IMG/VR virus record: IMGVR_UViG_3300027736_000240
Location: 1-24,593 of that record
Origin: a virus
Reading direction: 5' to 3' (one strand)
Length of the DNA stretch: 24,593 nt
How positions within the stretch are numbered: position 1 is the first letter of the stretch; every line of letters starts with the position of its first letter. Positions 8-9,210 of this stretch are shown here, one piece after another. The notes beneath the pieces were generated by a model that saw nothing but the letters and a program-made list of their open reading frames with translations, was not told the DNA's origin and did not search any database. The position numbers were made by a program, and so were the translations under genes.

Positions 8-253
8 GTGCTCACGACGAGGCAGGCGGTGTGGTCCGACGTGTGGGACATGATCGGACCGTACGGGCGGTATCGCCGTCCGGTCCGCGGTGGCATCCTC
101 CAGGCGTCGGTTCCGGTGGTTGTCGTGCGACCCGAGCGCAGGCCGGACGTGTTCACGATGATTGTGGATGATGCCTCCGGCGACAGCGTGATCGAATGCG
201 ACGAGGATGAGGCCCGCGCCGTCATGCGGTCTGGCTTCGGGGCGATGGCATGA
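8..253 (+). CDS. Hypothetical protein, possibly 5'-truncated
   Basis: I do not recognise this protein. It is read from a GTG at position 8, and no stop lies between that codon and the window edge in the same frame, so the true start may be upstream of the window. The readable part is 81 aa. It has a basic N-terminal half (many Arg around residues 20-45) and an acidic patch near residues 52-68 (DDASGD, then ECDEDEA). There is no membrane segment or signal peptide. Its stop overlaps the next gene's start in an ATGA junction (250-253), which supports it being translated as part of a polycistron of small early phage genes. Confidence 0.55.
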   Translation: MLTTRQAVWSDVWDMIGPYGRYRRPVRGGILQASVPVVVVRPERRPDVFTMIVDDASGDSVIECDEDEARAVMRSGFGAMA

Positions 254-624
254 ATGGCGACCTGATGGACGATGTGGTCACCGAAGTCAGCGTGACCGGC
301 GCGGTGACGACTGATGGGCGGTTGCGGTTTCGCAGTCCGCTCGACGTGGAGGCGTGGGCGCACGATCACCTGCTGGCACGCCTGGCGTGGGAATACCTGA
401 TCGACGGTGACGATAACGGTGTCCAAAGGGACACGGATTCGGCACTGGAGCGCGTCCGTACACGGTTGATCCCGGAGGCGGTCCGGCGCACGATGATCGG
501 ACGTCAATCGGACGGCCACTATCTGACGTGGGCGGTGTACGGGCTGGATGACAAGCGACAGGTGGAGTTCCTTGACCGCGCTTGGCACGAGTTCCTTGCG
601 CTGATCGTGCGGGGTACCGCGTGA
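250..624 (+). CDS. Hypothetical early phage protein (124 aa)
   Basis: I do not recognise this 124-aa protein. It starts at an ATG overlapping the preceding stop (ATGA) and ends overlapping the ATG of the next gene (TGATG, 622-626), so it sits inside a translationally coupled run. It begins with an acidic stretch, followed by a probable beta-strand pair (residues about 10-30) and a helical body containing AWAHDHLLARLAWEYLIDG. No catalytic motif, cysteine cluster or hydrophobic segment is visible. Neighbours are a ribbon-helix-helix-like protein and an HTH protein, so an accessory early function is likely, but this is context only. Confidence 0.65.
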   Translation: MNGDLMDDVVTEVSVTGAVTTDGRLRFRSPLDVEAWAHDHLLARLAWEYLIDGDDNGVQRDTDSALERVRTRLIPEAVRRTMIGRQSDGHYLTWAVYGLDDKRQVEFLDRAWHEFLALIVRGTA

Positions 625-866
625 TGCCGGACTTCGAGCGTGCCAGCGTGATGCTTGATAGTGAATCCCGCACGCTAGCCGTCCGTCGACCCTCGACGGA
701 TGCATGGCACACCAGGCGCGTCTGCGCGACGCTTCCCATTGTCATCGTCGAGACGCTCGACGCCATCGCACGGGACACTGGCCGGTCGCGTTCCCTTGTC
801 ATCACCGACGCTCTCCGGGCACACCCTGCCATCGCGGCTGCATTGACGGCACGTGGGCACTGGTGA
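624..866 (+). CDS. Ribbon-helix-helix (CopG/Arc-like) DNA-binding protein
   Basis: The 80-aa product fits a small ribbon-helix-helix regulator. Residues about 37-70 read as a short strand (VCATLPIVIVE), a helix (TLDAIARDTGRS), a turn and a second helix (SLVITDALRAHPAI), the arrangement seen in CopG/MetJ-type domains that dimerise through the strand and touch the DNA major groove. The ATG at 624 overlaps the previous stop by one base (TGATG). An in-frame GTG at 582 would add 14 residues inside the upstream gene and is less likely. The stop overlaps the ATG of the HTH gene in the same TGATG way. A role in early or lysogeny control is inferred; the target site is unknown. Confidence 0.6.
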   Translation: MPDFERASVMLDSESRTLAVRRPSTDAWHTRRVCATLPIVIVETLDAIARDTGRSRSLVITDALRAHPAIAAALTARGHW

Positions 867-1596: not shown

Positions 1597-2415
1597 ATGG
1601 CAATGCAGCGACCACAACGGACCAGTTTGCCCGCGTTCCAGCGCGTGGCTGGCAATGCCGAAAAGCACGACTACGCAATCACGCACCTGTGCGGCCACAC
1701 CGGGATCATCCAGGTGTTCGCCGGTTCCAACCCGGACAACAGCCGGTGGGTGCAGGCGCAAAAGGACCGCGACTGCCGGGATTGCTACACGGCGAAGATG
1801 GTGGATAGCGATCAGGCGTCGGTCGATGCCGGAAAGCGCGTCGCGCTCGATGGTGGACCCAAGCAGGTTCCGTGGGCGCAAAGCGTCCGGCAGTCCCGCG
1901 CATCCGAAATGCGGACGTGGCTGGAAAGCGTCACGGCGGTCGGTGCCGGTGCCGTCAAGGCGGGTCGGTTGACGCAGGCCGAGTTTGCGGCAGGCATCCA
2001 GGACGTTCGGGTCGCGTTCAGCGACCTCATGATGGGCGTCGAGTTCTCGGACGAGGACTATGATCACTCCGGCTACGCGAAGTGGTGGATCGACTCGCGG
2101 AAAGACTCGCTCGACGGCATCATCGCGCGGCTGTTGCCGGACAGGGACATCCTCGGGACCGGCGTGTTCACGCGCCTGTCCGAGGACGGATGGTCGCCAG
2201 CCGAGGATGCGACGCTGTTGCCGGTTGAGGTCGAAAAGGTCGAACCGGAACCCGTGCAACGCACCGCAACGCCGTTGCCTGGCACCGCACCGGAACCGTT
2301 CAATCCGCATGCGCGGGGCAAGGGTCGCCTGCCAGTCAAGGTCGTCGCCGGTCCGGCGGCTGGACAGTGGGAACGCGCCGTCGAGGCAATGGATCTGGAC
2401 GACAGTCCGTTCTGA
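1597..2415 (+). CDS. Zinc-ribbon-like protein with SSB-type acidic C-terminal tip
   Basis: This is a 272-aa protein using the ATG at 1597, 6 nt after a clear AAGGAG (1585-1590); the ATG at 1594 is too close to it. Residues C32, H34, C60 and C63 (LCGHT and CRDC) make a plausible zinc site. A helical middle (residues about 95-190) is followed by a Pro/Glu-rich linker. The C-terminus ends MDLDDSPF, closely resembling the DDDIPF tip by which bacterial SSB recruits partner enzymes. I do not see an obvious OB fold, so calling it SSB would be premature. Position between a possible annealing-type protein and a nuclease supports a replication or recombination role. Confidence 0.65.
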   Translation: MAMQRPQRTSLPAFQRVAGNAEKHDYAITHLCGHTGIIQVFAGSNPDNSRWVQAQKDRDCRDCYTAKMVDSDQASVDAGKRVALDGGPKQVPWAQSVRQSRASEMRTWLESVTAVGAGAVKAGRLTQAEFAAGIQDVRVAFSDLMMGVEFSDEDYDHSGYAKWWIDSRKDSLDGIIARLLPDRDILGTGVFTRLSEDGWSPAEDATLLPVEVEKVEPEPVQRTATPLPGTAPEPFNPHARGKGRLPVKVVAGPAAGQWERAVEAMDLDDSPF

Positions 2416-2439
2416 TCCGCGGTGGTATGCTGATCTACC

Positions 2440-2477
2440 CAATGATGGGCGGGAATCTTTCCCGCCCATCGTCATTG
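2440..2477 (+). promoter_or_regulatory. Strong intergenic hairpin in the leader of the nuclease gene
   Basis: A perfect 12-bp stem (GATGGGCGGGAA at 2444-2455 with TTCCCGCCCATC at 2459-2470) closes a 3-nt TCT loop; flanking CAATGA/TCATTG can extend or rearrange it. No T-run follows, so a classical intrinsic terminator is unlikely. It lies just before the GGAGGG ribosome binding site (2481-2486). An extended -10-like TGGTATGCT occurs at 2423-2431 without a recognisable -35, so the hairpin could be at the 5' end of a transcript starting near 2438. That promoter reading is tentative. Confidence 0.6.
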
Positions 2478-2491
2478 AACGGAGGGCACGG

Positions 2492-3172
2492 ATGACATTC
2501 CGAACCTACAAAGAGATCGAAGGCGGTGGTCTGTCGCGTCCACAAGAGTGGATGGGGGTCACATGGCAAAGCACCGCCGAGGCGCGCTGGGTGCGTTTGC
2601 TTGCGGATCTTGGACAGACGGTTGCGCCAGGTCGCGCGATTACGCTCTCCGAGCCGGTCGTCCAGCATGACGGGTATGTTCGACGGTGGTACAAGCCCGA
2701 CGCGTGGTTGCCCGATCTCGGGTGGCATGTCGAGGTCAAGCCAAGCGGGATCACTGACGAAGAGGCGACGGTCATCGCATCCGCGCTTGAGACATCGGAG
2801 AATCCGGTTCTTCTGCTTGACAAGGCAATGCCCGCGCAACGGTGCTACACGCTTGTGCATGGCTACTACGAAGAGGGCATGGCGATGATTGACGGTGTCG
2901 ACCCTGAAGTGCGGTCGTATGTCGACGTTCGAGATGGGAACACGTGTGGTCTGGCGTGCACATTCCGCTACCTGTGGTTGGGTAGATTTCCTGCCATTCA
3001 CGCAGGGCTTGCCGCATGCAAGACGCATCGCAGAGGGGGACAACTATCTGACACGCATGGTCTTGAAGCCGGAACCGGACGATTTAGGCCATACGGAATT
3101 GAAGTGCCGGATAACAAGTGGTTCAAGGATATGAAGCGCAACTTCGTGCGTCCGTTCGGCGGTGAGGCATGA
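2492..3172 (+). CDS. PD-(D/E)XK nuclease superfamily protein
   Basis: The 226-aa product starts at the ATG at 2492, 5 nt after GGAGGG. The N-terminal half shows the PD-(D/E)XK layout: an upstream acidic residue in a helix (E30 in STAEARWVRLLADLG), the KPDAWLPDLG turn with D70, and the EVK strand with E81 and K83. This arrangement is common in phage and bacterial TnsA-like or 'restriction-like' small nucleases. The C-terminal half contains C152, C156, C176 and H179, a possible second metal site. It would cut DNA, perhaps in recombination, replication or host-DNA degradation; specificity cannot be read. The stop overlaps the primase start in ATGA. Confidence 0.75.
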   Translation: MTFRTYKEIEGGGLSRPQEWMGVTWQSTAEARWVRLLADLGQTVAPGRAITLSEPVVQHDGYVRRWYKPDAWLPDLGWHVEVKPSGITDEEATVIASALETSENPVLLLDKAMPAQRCYTLVHGYYEEGMAMIDGVDPEVRSYVDVRDGNTCGLACTFRYLWLGRFPAIHAGLAACKTHRRGGQLSDTHGLEAGTGRFRPYGIEVPDNKWFKDMKRNFVRPFGGEA

Positions 3173-5556
3173 ACGCACGTGCATTGCCGCCACGTGAGTT
3201 GCCGGACAACATTGCGCACCTTGGCACGATGCGCAACTGGATTGCGTGGGAACGCGTCAAGGTTCTGAACGACGATGGCACCGTCAAGTTGAATGTCGAC
3301 GGTACGCCGAAGATATCCAAAAAGCCGCGTACGGCGAGCGGCACACATAAGCGGTGCCATGAGGATTGCACTGGCGATGGTGGTTCCACGGGGACGAATG
3401 ACACGTACATGAAGACGTGGAGAACGTATGCCGAGGTCCGCACGGCGATTGACCGGCGACCCGGACTGGCGGGCATGGGATTCGTGTTCCCGCTTGAAGG
3501 TGGCATGGTCGGCGTCGATCTGGATCACGTCATCGACGCTGACGGCGTCATGAGTCCCGAGGCTGACGCGATCATCGAGGAACTCGGCAGTTACGCCGAA
3601 TGGTCGCCCTCCGGGACAGGCATTCACATCCTGTGCCTCGGGGCACTGCCGGAAGGTGGACGCAAGCGCGGCAACGTCGAGATGTACGCGACCGGGCGGT
3701 ACTTCACGTTCACCGGACGTGGCTACAGTCGGTTTGGGGATCTTCCGATACGTGATGCGACGGCGGAACTCGCGGCCATACACGCGCGGGAGTTTGATGC
3801 GCCATCGCCGCAGGGCCGGTTGCCGACGGTTGCGAGCGATGACGTCGCGCCGTTCGACGCCGAACCGATGACGGACCCGGACCTGATGCGTCACATGTTC
3901 GCAGCGCGCAACGGTGAGGCCATCGAGCGCCTGTGGCAGGGCGACGACGGGGCGCATGGTGGCGACACTTCATCCGCGGACCTTGCGCTGTGCAACCACC
4001 TGGCGTTCTGGACGAATGCCGACCGGCTGCGGATGGACGCGATGTTCCGTGCGAGCCGACGCATGCGCGACAAATGGGACGAGCGCCACCACGCCGATGG
4101 ACGCACCTACGGCCAGGGGACCATTGACCGCGCCATTGCCGGGACGTCAACCACGATTGGTCAGCGGCGATCCGCAAGGACTGCGGTGGCGACTGCGACA
4201 CGGGCCGGGGACAGCATCGGCGACCGCTTGCCGTTCACCGACCTCGGGAATGCCGAGCGGTTGGTGCGGGCGCATGGCGACAACATCCGGTGGGTGACCG
4301 ATTGGAAGGTCTGGATACGTTGGAACAATCTTTATTGGGAGCGTGACGCCGACGGTGCGGTCATGCGACTGGTCTTCGATGTGGTGCGTGACATCGTTTT
4401 GGAGGGCGAGGACGAGGCAGTCGTCAAGTTTGCGGTTCGCTCGGAGGCGCTCCAACGGATGGTGGCAGCCGTGGAACTGGCAAAGGCGCTTCCGGGCATC
4501 AGCATCCGGTCGGACATCCTGAACCAAGGGCGCGACACGCTCGTGGTGCGTGATGGCACGCTTGACCTTCGCACCGCCGAGGTCACGCCGCACCGGCGCG
4601 AGGACATGATCACGACGGTTATCAAATGGGACGGGGAACTCGCGCACTTCGACCTGAATGCCGAATGCCCGGTCTTCATGCAGGCGCTTGCCACATGGCA
4701 GGCGGACCCGGAGGTGCGCAGGTACCTGCAACGGTTCGCGGGGTACGCGCTGACCGGCCACGTCCGTGAGCGTGCCATCGCGATCTTCTGGGGGACTGGG
4801 CGGAATGGCAAGTCCACCTTCGTGGAGGCGCTGAAACAGACGTACGGCGACCACTCGCACCAGTCGTCCACGGACTTGATCATGCAACGGCGGGGCACGG
4901 ATGCGGGCGCAGCATCGCCGGAACTCGCAGCCTTGCAGGGCAAGCGCCTGGTGGTGATGGACGAAACATCCGAAGGCGGCAAACTTGACGAGGCACGCGT
5001 CAAGTGGCTGACCGGCAACGACCGCCTGTCCGCGCGGAAACTGTACGGCGAACCGTTCGAGTTCAATCCAACGCACACGATCCTGCTCACGACCAATCAC
5101 CGGCCGGTCATACGGTCCGGTGGCGAGGCGATCTGGGACCGCATCCACCAGGTGCCGTGGGAGACGCGGATCTCGGACGCCGATCTGGATCGCACCCTGC
5201 CGGACCGGCTGCATGCCGAACGCCCGGGCATCTTCACGTGGGCGGTGCTCGGCACCGGGTCGTGGTACGAACGGGGACTCGACCCGCCACCATCTGTCCA
5301 AAAAGCGACCGAGGAATATCGCGATTCCAGCGACTGGTTTGGCCTGTTTTTGGAGGATCGGTGCGTGCTTTTGGAAGGTCAGATGACGACCGCAAAGGAT
5401 CTGCACCGTGCATACGATGCATGGGCGAAAGAGTCGGAAGAACGGCTTCTATCGGTGATAACGCTTGGGCGCATCCTGTCCGAGCGCGGGTTCCGAAGCG
5501 CCAAGGACCGGCGCGGACGGCGTGGATGGGACGGCATCGGATTGACACCTCAGTGA
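3169..5556 (+). CDS. Primase-polymerase / SF3 helicase (NrS-1-like)
   Basis: This 795-aa protein appears to combine priming and unwinding. The N-terminal archaeo-eukaryotic primase-like domain (residues about 15-215) has the acidic pair D117 and D119 in GVDLDH, the SPSGTGIHI signature (146-154) and RKRGNVEMYATGRYFTFTG. A helix-bundle domain follows (residues about 240-320, with TSSADLALCNHLAFWT and KWDERHHADGRTYG), as in the phage NrS-1 polymerase. The C-terminal half is a D5/P4-type SF3 helicase: Walker A GTGRNGKST (542-550, K548), Walker B VVMDE (D598, E599), and a sensor segment LLTTNHRP. It should prime and unwind phage DNA independently of host DnaB/DnaG. A likely origin lies directly downstream. 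A CATCTGTCCAAA copy of the origin repeat occurs inside the gene at 5291. Confidence 0.88.
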   Translation: MNARALPPRELPDNIAHLGTMRNWIAWERVKVLNDDGTVKLNVDGTPKISKKPRTASGTHKRCHEDCTGDGGSTGTNDTYMKTWRTYAEVRTAIDRRPGLAGMGFVFPLEGGMVGVDLDHVIDADGVMSPEADAIIEELGSYAEWSPSGTGIHILCLGALPEGGRKRGNVEMYATGRYFTFTGRGYSRFGDLPIRDATAELAAIHAREFDAPSPQGRLPTVASDDVAPFDAEPMTDPDLMRHMFAARNGEAIERLWQGDDGAHGGDTSSADLALCNHLAFWTNADRLRMDAMFRASRRMRDKWDERHHADGRTYGQGTIDRAIAGTSTTIGQRRSARTAVATATRAGDSIGDRLPFTDLGNAERLVRAHGDNIRWVTDWKVWIRWNNLYWERDADGAVMRLVFDVVRDIVLEGEDEAVVKFAVRSEALQRMVAAVELAKALPGISIRSDILNQGRDTLVVRDGTLDLRTAEVTPHRREDMITTVIKWDGELAHFDLNAECPVFMQALATWQADPEVRRYLQRFAGYALTGHVRERAIAIFWGTGRNGKSTFVEALKQTYGDHSHQSSTDLIMQRRGTDAGAASPELAALQGKRLVVMDETSEGGKLDEARVKWLTGNDRLSARKLYGEPFEFNPTHTILLTTNHRPVIRSGGEAIWDRIHQVPWETRISDADLDRTLPDRLHAERPGIFTWAVLGTGSWYERGLDPPPSVQKATEEYRDSSDWFGLFLEDRCVLLEGQMTTAKDLHRAYDAWAKESEERLLSVITLGRILSERGFRSAKDRRGRRGWDGIGLTPQ

Positions 5557-5578
5557 TGTCCGGTGCGCGTGCCTTTTT

Positions 5579-5602
5579 GGACAGATGGACAGATGGACAG
5601 AT
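5579..5602 (+). repeat. Three tandem 8-bp repeats GGACAGAT
   Basis: Exact tandem copies at 5579-5586, 5587-5594 and 5595-5602. Their reverse complement ATCTGTCC recurs at 5678, 5775 and 5795, so the unit is part of the larger origin-candidate array. Confidence 0.9.
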
Positions 5603-5742
5603 GTTCGGCAAAGTCCCCTTTGTGTGCGCGTGTGCGCGTGTGCGGGTGCGGGCGCGAATGGTTACTTTTCTGTATTTATCTGTCCAATCTGCCGTCAGAT
5701 ATGTAAAACATACAAGTTGACAGGGAAGAAAGTCAAAAAAAG

Positions 5743-5766
5743 GTGACGGCAGATGTGACGGCAGAT
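5743..5766 (+). repeat. Two tandem 12-bp repeats GTGACGGCAGAT
   Basis: Exact tandem copies at 5743-5754 and 5755-5766. They share the CAGAT core with the GGACAGAT units. The related GCCGTCA arm also appears at 5691-5697 and the GCCGTCATCTG arm at 5789-5799. Confidence 0.9.
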
Positions 5767-5773
5767 GTGTTTT

Positions 5774-5805
5774 CATCTGTCCAAAAGCGCCGTCATCTGT
5801 CCAAA
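5774..5805 (-). repeat. Two direct repeats CATCTGTCCAAA, 20 bp apart
   Basis: Exact copies at 5774-5785 and 5794-5805, two helical turns apart start to start. A third exact copy lies at 5291-5302 inside the primase-helicase gene. They are the reverse complement of the TTTGGACAGATG unit, so protein binding on one face of the helix is plausible. Confidence 0.85.
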
Positions 5806-5877
5806 GATGATCGCGGGCGATTGGCCGCAACCACTTGACAATACGTCCGTTTAAGAGGGTGGAACGGGGGATGTACC

Positions 5878-6054
5878 ATGACGGGATACTGGCTGGCGGT
5901 CGGGTTGGAAATGGCGATGCTGGTACTGCTCCTGGCTATCGCACTGTGGGCGCTGTTCGATGCAGATCGGCTACGCGGACTGTGGATCACGGAACGGGAG
6001 CGACGGGTGACGGGATCACGCGAGTGCACTTGCGGGGCGTACCGCCGGTGCTGA
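5878..6054 (+). CDS. Small single-span membrane protein (58 aa)
   Basis: A short ORF starts at the ATG at 5878 with a GGGGG ribosome binding site about 7 nt upstream. The 58-aa product has one strongly hydrophobic segment (residues about 5-27, including LVLLLAIALWALF), then a charged basic tail (DADRLRGLWITERERR) ending in a cysteine cluster C50, C52, C58 (ECTCGAYRRC). Little N-terminal charge and a positive C-terminal side suggest an N-out/C-in topology. It overlaps the start of the sigma-like gene by 7 nt, implying coupled translation. It could be a holin-like or regulatory membrane peptide, or tether the sigma factor. None of these is demonstrated, and the coding assignment rests on composition, RBS and spacing. 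Confidence 0.65.
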   Translation: MTGYWLAVGLEMAMLVLLLAIALWALFDADRLRGLWITERERRVTGSRECTCGAYRRC

Positions 6055-6659
6055 TCGACGATGTACGCGAGACGTTTGACGCGCTGTACAGCGATCTCGG
6101 TGGCGAGGTCACGGGACACGTGCACCGCCTGATGAAGGGGCGCACGCTTGACGCGCTGTCCGCCGAGGATTGCATCCAAACCGTGTGGACGAAGGTGTGG
6201 GCGAACTTGCCGGACGCCGAGCGCCGACCCGGACGGGGACGCCATGACGGGCTGCGCGCGTGGGTCCACATGATCACGCGCAATACGGTCCTCGACTTGG
6301 CGAACCGTGCATCGTACCGGCGTCACGTCAGCCTGGCACCGGACGGGATGCTGGACCACGGAACCGTCAACCGGTCCGGCGACGCGGTCCGTACGGACCC
6401 GCACTTCGAGGCGTCACCGGCCACCGACCCGCATGCACGCGCGGTCGGCAACGAGGTCGCGTCAATGGTCAACGAGGCGCTCGGCATGATGACGGCGTAC
6501 CAGGCGCGATGTGTCCGGACGATGCTGGTAGGACTCAACAGCGTCGAGTCGGCGCAGCGCCAGGGCAAGACCGGCCGGGGCGTTCGCCACGCGCTGTTCC
6601 GTGGCCGGCGGACGTTCGAGGCCGTCGCGTCACAAAGGGGCTACGACCTATGCCATTGA
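6048..6659 (+). CDS. Sigma-70 family (ECF-like) RNA polymerase sigma factor
   Basis: The product is about 203 aa from GTG 6048, which overlaps the previous stop by 7 nt; GTG 6024 is an alternative. The region-2 part (residues about 7-94) holds FDALYSDLGGEVTGHVHRLM, then AEDCIQTVWTKVWANLP, the region 2.2 core-polymerase contact, then LRAWVHMITRNTVLDLANR, the region 2.3-2.4 promoter-melting and -10 helix. After an acidic, His-rich linker, region 4 (residues about 137-192) reads ALGMMTAYQARCVRTMLVGLNSVESAQRQG followed by a basic recognition helix, TGRGVRHALFRGRRTF. It should redirect host RNA polymerase, most likely to late promoters, given its place between replication and morphogenesis genes. 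Target promoters could not be identified. Confidence 0.75.
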   Translation: MLIDDVRETFDALYSDLGGEVTGHVHRLMKGRTLDALSAEDCIQTVWTKVWANLPDAERRPGRGRHDGLRAWVHMITRNTVLDLANRASYRRHVSLAPDGMLDHGTVNRSGDAVRTDPHFEASPATDPHARAVGNEVASMVNEALGMMTAYQARCVRTMLVGLNSVESAQRQGKTGRGVRHALFRGRRTFEAVASQRGYDLCH

Positions 6660-7583: not shown

Positions 7584-8006
7584 ATGGCTGAACAGCGATA
7601 CACCATGACGCAGATCGCGGATGCCTTGCGTGCGCATGGTGGCTTCGTCAGCGACACCGCAGTGCACCTCGGCTGTTACGCCACAACAGTCAGGCGATAC
7701 ATTGCGCGGTACCCGGCGCTCCAGCAGATCATCGACGATGAACGCGAGCGCGTGCTTGACGTGGCCGAACGCGCCAACGCCAAACTGATCGCGGATGGAC
7801 ATCCCGAGCAAGTGCGCTGGTTTCTCGGCAAGATGGGCCGCAAACGTGGCTACACCGACAAGACCGAGGTCGAACTAAGCGGACCCGGTGGAGGGCCAAT
7901 CCGTCTTGACGTTGACCGATTCCTCGACGCTCTCGCCGTTGCAGAGGCTGGCACGCTTGCCGCGCCACCTGCAACGCCAGGTGTTGCAACAGGCGACGCG
8001 GACTGA
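7584..8006 (+). CDS. terS: Terminase small subunit
   Basis: This is about 140 aa. The ATG at 7581 leaves only 1 nt after GAGG, while the ATG at 7584 leaves 4, so 7584 is preferred. An N-terminal HTH (residues about 8-45) contains MTQIADALRAHGGFVSDTAVHLG and TVRRYIARYPALQQII, followed by a long helix (DDERERVLDVAERANAKLI) and PEQVRWFLGKMGRKRGY, a segment typical of phage TerS proteins that assemble as rings. It would recognise the packaging site and load the large subunit. It sits directly upstream of TerL and shares 119 nt with it. The C-terminus is low-complexity Ala/Pro/Gly. Confidence 0.82.
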   Translation: MAEQRYTMTQIADALRAHGGFVSDTAVHLGCYATTVRRYIARYPALQQIIDDERERVLDVAERANAKLIADGHPEQVRWFLGKMGRKRGYTDKTEVELSGPGGGPIRLDVDRFLDALAVAEAGTLAAPPATPGVATGDAD

Positions 8007-9210
8007 CGCGGACCTCGGCGCAATGCGCCGGGAGTGGCGCATCGTCGGACGTCCGAACCAGCAGCCACCCGTCACCGATTGGCGGACGTGGCTGGTGCTC
8101 GCGGGCCGAGGCTTCGGCAAGACGCGCACGGGCGCGGAGTGGGTCCGCGCGCAGGTTGAACAGCACGGACGCCAGCGCGTCGCCATCGTCGGCGCAACCG
8201 CAGCGGATGCGCGCGACGTCATGGTCGAGGGCGAGTCCGGCATCCTTGCCGTTGCACCGCCTGGCAACCGACCCGAGTACGAGCCGTCGAAGCGTCGCCT
8301 GCGGTGGCCGAACGGCGCGATGGCGACGACGTACTCGGCCGACGAGCCGGATCGGTTGCGCGGTCCGCAACACGACGCCGCATGGTGTGACGAACTTGCG
8401 GCGTGGCGCTACCCGGAAGCATGGGACATGCTGCAACTCGGACTGCGTCTCGGCACCGACCCGCGTGCCGTCGTGACGACGACGCCGAAGCCGACGCGCA
8501 TCCTGCGTGACCTGATCGCCGCACCCGGCACCGTTGTCACCACCGGGTCCACGTTCGACAATGCGTCCAACCTGCCGGCGGCGTTCCTTGCGCAGATCCG
8601 ACGGCAATACGAGGGCACCAGACTCGGACGCCAGGAACTGTACGCCGAACTCCTTGAGGACACACCAGGCGCGCTGTGGACGCGGGCGATGATCGACGAT
8701 CACCGCGTGCGTCACGCGCCAACGTTCCGGCGCGTCGTCGTCGCCGTCGACCCGGCCGTCACGTCCGGCGAGGATGCGGACATGACGGGGATCGTCGCCT
8801 GCGGTCTCGGCGAGGACGGGCACGCGTACGTCATCGGGGATTACACGCTGCGCGCGTCACCTGATGCGTGGGCGCGGGAGGCGGTGCGCCGGTATCGTGA
8901 CCTCGGCGCCGACCGGCTTGTCGCCGAGGCGAACAACGGTGGCGACCTTGTCGAGACGGTCATGCGCACGGTCGACGCGAATATCGCGTATCGTAGTGTC
9001 AGGGCCAGCCGGGGCAAGCTGGCACGGGCCGAGCCGGTGGCGGCGTTGTACGAACAGGGGCGCGTGCATCACGTCGGCGTGTACCCTGACCTTGAGGACC
9101 AAATGGCGACGTACACCGCGGACGCTGCGAAATCCCCTGACCGGCTGGACGCGCTGGTGTGGGCGCTGACCGATCTCATGCTCGGCGGTGGCGAGTGGGT
9201 GATGGTATGA
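7888..9210 (+). CDS. terL: Terminase large subunit (packaging ATPase/nuclease)
   Basis: The 440-aa product carries both terminase activities. The ATPase part has Walker A AGRGFGKT (72-79, K78), preceded by the family-typical DWRTWLVL, Walker B AAWCDEL (D168, E169), and the coupling motif VVTTTPKPT (195-203). The RNase H-like nuclease has D288 in VAVDPA, E347 in VAEANNGG and acidic D418/D421 in SPDRLDALVWAL. It would drive DNA into the prohead through the portal and cut the concatemer. The GTG at 7888 gives a 119-nt overlap with TerS. The overlapping reading (LQRLARLPRHLQRQVLQQ) looks like the normal N-terminal helix of this family, so the overlap is probably real. The stop overlaps the portal start (ATGA). 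Confidence 0.93.
   Translation: MEGQSVLTLTDSSTLSPLQRLARLPRHLQRQVLQQATRTDADLGAMRREWRIVGRPNQQPPVTDWRTWLVLAGRGFGKTRTGAEWVRAQVEQHGRQRVAIVGATAADARDVMVEGESGILAVAPPGNRPEYEPSKRRLRWPNGAMATTYSADEPDRLRGPQHDAAWCDELAAWRYPEAWDMLQLGLRLGTDPRAVVTTTPKPTRILRDLIAAPGTVVTTGSTFDNASNLPAAFLAQIRRQYEGTRLGRQELYAELLEDTPGALWTRAMIDDHRVRHAPTFRRVVVAVDPAVTSGEDADMTGIVACGLGEDGHAYVIGDYTLRASPDAWAREAVRRYRDLGADRLVAEANNGGDLVETVMRTVDANIAYRSVRASRGKLARAEPVAALYEQGRVHHVGVYPDLEDQMATYTADAAKSPDRLDALVWALTDLMLGGGEWVMV

Follow-up and report, generated by a model that had tools for sequence, protein, structure and literature searches.

A probable iteron-type replication origin directly downstream of the primase-helicase gene of an uncultured tailed phage, and its exchange as a cassette

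Replication origins of PICIs are located immediately 3' of rep, with an AT-rich region between two iteron sets (PMC6092414, PMC7581432), and the rep-ori segment supports replication (PMC6092414). SaPI Rep acts through its C-terminal domain on iterons that immediately follow the gene encoding it (PMC7581432). A comparable position was shown by deletion for the plasmid pRN1, where the origin lies immediately downstream of the gene for ORF904, a protein with Prim-Pol, SF3 and winged-helix parts (PMC4234260). For NrS-1, two copies of an 8-nt recognition sequence were described as a possible origin (PMC7102993).

An uncultured-virus record of 24,593 bases, incomplete and with its genes on one strand, was analysed over its whole length (the window). 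Initial annotation had proposed a repeat array in this window as a likely phage replication origin, and had considered its architecture of two unit types to match no known origin. The latter statement was wrong, as the layout is the one published for SaPI and PICI elements (PMC6092414, PMC7581432), and two variants of one repeat unit are also present in phages PSA and phiadh. With regard to function, the array is very probably the iteron-type replication origin of this phage, and the primase-helicase from the adjoining upstream gene is very probably the protein that recognises it.

The primase-helicase and the repeat array

Coordinates of all features are listed in Table 1. The presumed initiator was assigned to the PHROG category 'DNA primase' (E 8e-158). 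It has both the AEP catalytic domain and the HBD of the NrS-1-like Prim-Pol family (PF22763, E 5.5e-26), and it matched NrS-1 structures with an E-value of about 1e-24. A profile built from 46 relatives was matched over the full length to PDB 7ola (E 5e-89), which is titled 'Structure of Primase-Helicase in SaPI5'. The AF2 model had a pLDDT of 83.9 and ended in two helices (742-755 and 763-772) and two strands (776-779 and 785-792), which is the pattern of a winged helix. VIA-align gave a Z of 29.5 to 7ola over residues 349-795, and a Z of about 21 to NrS-1 N-terminal structures. Other genes of the window encode a sigma factor, RusA, terminase, portal and capsid-family proteins.

Table 1. Position of the replication cassette, the primase-helicase with its domains, the repeat units and the downstream operon in the window
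Feature	Position	Strand	Evidence or remark
Exchangeable replication cassette (upstream gene, primase-helicase and array)	2415-5827	+	DNA similarity breakpoints
Primase-helicase, presumed initiator	3169-5556	+	Pfam, PHROG, profile, AF2 model, fold match
NrS-1-like AEP Prim-Pol of the primase-helicase	residues about 70-260		
NrS-1 HBD of the primase-helicase	residues 268-329		
D5_N of the primase-helicase	residues 362-508		
SF3 ATPase of the primase-helicase, GTGRNGKS	residues 542-549		
C-terminal winged helix of the primase-helicase	residues about 742-792		
Left iteron block, TGGACAGATG x3 direct, 8-bp period	5578-5603	+	kept in L001, L002, L003
Strictly alternating purine-pyrimidine tract, 24 bp, TGTGTGCGCGTGTGCGCGTGTGCG	5621-5644		between left block and AT-rich core
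AT-rich core, presumed unwinding region	5661-5740		66% AT; sits between iteron blocks
Inverted iteron TGGACAGATA, TGGACAGATG with last base changed	5677-5686	-	
Inverted second-type iteron TGACGGCAGATT, TGACGGCAGATG with one mismatch	5686-5697	-	
Second-type iterons, TGACGGCAGATG x2 direct, 12-bp period	5744-5767	+	
Right block, inverted TGGACAGATG	5774-5783	-	
Right block, inverted TGGACAGATG	5794-5803	-	20 bp from the 5774-5783 copy
Conserved GCAACCACTTGACA leader, small ORF (about 5878-6054) and sigma-70 region 2 protein (6048-6659)	5828-6659	+	outside replication unit

The array is located in the large non-coding gap that had been described after the primase/helicase gene and before the sigma operon, and this gap extends from the primase stop at 5556 to the next start at about 5878. 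Ten CAGAT/ATCTG cores had been reported against about 0.5 expected, and the same number was counted in the window (5582-5799); shuffles of the array's own 234 bp contained 0.48 cores on average and four at most, and none of 5000 shuffles reached ten. Six copies of TCTGTCCA/TGGACAGA are present in the array, compared with at most four for other 8-mer clusters of equal span and 3-4 in shuffled genomes. The two unit types, with tandem, inverted and 20-bp-phased copies, were confirmed by the unit coordinates (5578-5803). From left to right, the three TGGACAGATG units are followed by the AT-rich core, the direct TGACGGCAGATG pair and the two inverted TGGACAGATG copies. At the left side of the core, each unit type is present once in inverted orientation. 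The tenth CAGAT core (5696-5700) falls outside any full unit. The inverted iteron blocks could pair across about 200 nt.

In this record of 65% GC, the AT-rich core is the second most AT-rich 80-bp locus. The alternating purine-pyrimidine tract is the longest run of such kind in the record and is possibly a Z-DNA-prone element. Its GC/GT alternation is retained in the relatives L001 and L002, in the latter with a different sequence and the alternation largely kept.

In the window, the type-1 and type-2 repeats point in opposite directions, which departs from the simplest pattern. Both are probably variants of one site, and we infer that GGACAGATG and CGGCAGATG have the core GRCAGATG in common. 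In L002 and L003, the position of one TGACGGCAGATG unit is occupied by CTTGGACAGATG, which suggests that both unit types serve the same protein.

Iterons of plasmids often have roles in autoregulation or copy control (handcuffing). The repeats of the window could likewise be bound by the primase-helicase chiefly for such control, with the firing origin elsewhere, and an additional exact copy of TGGACAGATG inside the primase gene (5291-5300, minus strand) would fit such a role. We consider this improbable, as an array 3' of the gene with an AT-rich core equals the PICI layout that was functionally tested (PMC6092414), and no other comparable 8-mer array is present in the 24.6-kb record, which is incomplete.

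Close relatives and cassette exchange

Comparison with related phages had been proposed as a check of the origin. The array was found at the same site in three close relatives that keep the primase-helicase, with amino acid identities of 97% (L001) and about 85-88% (L002 and L003). No DNA similarity of the array region to named phages was found.

In relatives with one of two other cassettes (B and C), DNA similarity to the window ends at 2415-2427 and returns at 5819-5827. Cassette B was present in L063, L065, L075 and L174. In all four, the sequence from 5825-5827 onwards is as in the window (72-93% DNA identity), and the upstream sequence up to 2415-2427 is also as in the window in L063, L065 and L075 (77-87%). 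The primase-helicase of cassette B is 47% identical to that of the window in the SF3 part, 45% in the C-terminus and 18% in the N-terminus, and its array consists of GTACGGCGGG in two or three direct copies, an AT-rich core and two inverted copies. Cassette C (L175 and L180) has TGCCACTA repeats and an extra gene between the array and the same right junction. Three cassettes thus occur in one phage group, and each type was found in contigs from at least two different samples, which makes assembly chimaeras unlikely. The proteins of cassettes B and C are about 92% identical over their first 240 residues and differ in the helicase and the C-terminus, as do the arrays; the array therefore follows the helicase half. 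This natural swap of three primase-helicase/array cassettes is a ready-made set for tests of how the presumed initiator recognises its iterons.

The N-terminal domain of the cassette B and C proteins is TOPRIM-like (Toprim_2), and that of the window protein is a Prim-Pol. Comparison of L063 (3212-5431) and L175 (3048-5288) with the window (3169-5556) showed that non-homologous primase domains were swapped before a homologous D5 helicase. One cassette swap exchanges an archaeo-eukaryotic primase domain for a TOPRIM domain.

The exchange also bears on other functions of the array. An operator for another protein had been named as one of the outcomes that would speak against an origin, and the array is located directly upstream of the small-ORF/sigma-factor operon, of which it could be an operator or enhancer; repeated sites are often operators. 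The GCAACCACTTGACA leader, the small ORF and the sigma-70 region 2 gene are the same whichever array precedes them. As this operon with its leader, from about 5825, is 72-93% identical in relatives in which the array was swapped together with the primase-helicase, the operator function is disfavoured. In cassette C the extra gene separates the array from the leader, and the arrays of other phages stand before unrelated genes. The probability of an operator is rated low, slightly below that of copy control. Least probable is a role of the array in partition (centromere-like) or packaging (pac/cos). In its favour, partition sites are likewise repeat arrays, and the gene for the large terminase (7888-9210) follows at a distance of 2 kb. 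Against it, no ParA/ParB-like gene was found among the window proteins examined, and relatives with different arrays have the same downstream region while the array changes with the helicase.

Arrays beside other primases and covariation with the protein

A search for the CAGAT array beside homologous primases had also been suggested, and repeat arrays were found at the corresponding position of such loci. Fifty representative primases with <70% identity were surveyed, and the 350 bp 3' of each gene were scored as a repeat tile. This was the top repeat tile of its locus for 31 of the 50 primases (1.25 expected), and the repeat word differs phage by phage. The iteron sets flank an AT-rich core in 26 of 30 clear cases, and in 21 of the 30 the G-rich strand is the plus strand on the left and the minus strand on the right. 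The phages phi105, PSA, A2, SP119-3 and phiadh, with primases 29-34% identical to that of the window, have a post-primase gap of about 250-390 bp with their own iterons round an AT-rich core, and a rep_origin is annotated in this gap in A2 and phiadh. In about 15 of the 50 representatives the 3' iterons were weak or absent (score under 4.5), and no iteron array was found after the primase in EL753P1, BPP-1, Jovita, Shambre1, Tuck and Vash; the rule of iterons 3' of the primase is not universal. Together with the co-exchange of array and primase-helicase, the arrays beside homologous primases support the origin function that had been proposed.

The relation of iterons to protein domains was analysed in 47 phages whose iterons are clear, with correction for GC content and for every other domain. 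Iteron similarity was correlated with C-terminal identity (partial r 0.23 with exact matching and 0.18 with one mismatch, reached by none of 1000 permutations in either case), a signal that could partly be due to genetic linkage because the end of the gene adjoins the array. Covariation was weaker for D5_N, and none was found for AEP, HBD and SF3 in the 47 phages. In a sliding analysis the peak was at residues 770-795, where the AF2 model has the last part of the recognition helix followed by the wing.

Two further observations were made in the survey. GAGAGTAAGG is located 177-213 bp past the primase stop in L007, L010, L005 and L168 (Firmicute-type phage origins), with a single further occurrence elsewhere in 448 kb. 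In Mycobacterium phage Atiba (L182, 4377-4733), gene 71, annotated as 'hypothetical protein', overlies the iteron array; the same stretch was left non-coding by other annotators of that phage group, and gene 71 may be a false gene call on top of an origin.

Viral contigs were also searched for the exact array word. Apart from close relatives, arrays of GGACAGAT were found adjoining a Toprim/DUF3987 primase gene (L193, near 10943) and a CHC2 zinc finger primase gene (L196, near 229). As these are unrelated TOPRIM-type primases, the repeat word alone does not identify its reader, and its presence in both contigs suggests convergence. In L188 (minus strand, about 4550-4750), a GGACAGAT/ATCTGTCC array was located within the reading frame of a D5 helicase, past the winged-helix part, so that the presumed origin would be translated as a C-terminal extension. 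Matches of the array word in L191, L192, L194 and L195 look like coding coincidences, and the repeated TGACGGCAGAT in L197-L200 was discarded, with no D5 primase beside the repeats in the stretch examined.

Proposed function and comparison with described origins

By analogy with the SaPI family, a course of events from binding and melting to double-ring loading and origin firing can be proposed for this phage. The C-terminal winged helix would bind the GGACAGATG/CGGCAGATG iterons to the left and right of the AT-rich core, where subunits of the primase-helicase would assemble, probably into a pair of opposed SF3 rings. The core would melt, the helicase would load itself, and the N-terminal Prim-Pol would make the first primers. 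GC skew, calculated for the whole sequence and for fourfold sites, had no turning point at the array, which is uninformative in a 24.6-kb fragment that carries its genes on a single strand.

As many tailed phages and prophages in the survey have the layout of the window, sequence alone could serve to locate the origin in many uncultured phages. Our judgement is evenly balanced on a more general proposal, namely that the C-terminal winged helix and the post-gene iterons of tailed phages with a D5-type primase-helicase form a matched, exchangeable lock-and-key cassette. In such a cassette the repeat word would in principle be readable from the protein's final residues, and the slot would take a primase domain of archaeo-eukaryotic or of TOPRIM type. 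If true, origins would be predictable in uncultured phages, and PICI and phage replicons may have a module in common.

The closest described systems are the pri-rep-ori modules of SaPI and PICI elements (SaPI5 Rep, and E. coli PICIs such as EcCICFT073), which have a fused primase-helicase as in the window. As in these, a primase is combined with a D5-type helicase carrying a C-terminal DNA-binding domain, and an origin-like array with two iteron sets flanking an AT-rich region lies directly 3' of the helicase gene. The window differs in its repeats, in having two variants of them, and in the 24-bp alternating tract between the left block and the core. Unlike a PICI it is not a satellite, as the tailed phage to which it belongs itself encodes terminase, portal and capsid-family proteins.

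The Lactobacillus phages A2 and phiadh have a primase of the same family (about 30% identity) and inverted iteron blocks round an AT-rich core in the same position, whereas their iterons are ACGGGAGGAT and GTGTAGGGTT/GTGTATAGTT, respectively, and their hosts are AT-rich. A counterpart of the GAGAGTAAGG element of A2 and some other Firmicute phages was sought in the window origin and was absent. In the Mycobacterium phage Atiba/Adephagia group, GGCACAGAT iterons, tandem and inverted, directly follow a D5 primase/helicase, and 168 mycobacteriophage records match the Atiba array region. The C-terminal domain of this group is 37% identical to that of the window over 81 aa, but the match is limited to the helicase half, and Pfam reports no NrS-1 HBD or AEP domain there. 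pRN1 differs in being an archaeal plasmid with a 100-nt stem-loop as origin instead of an iteron array, and for the NrS-1 phage polymerase two recognition copies are reported as a possible origin, where the window has an array. Staphylococcal islands and a few phages therefore already provide examples of this origin design; the present analysis adds its breadth in tailed phages and the exchange of the cassette.
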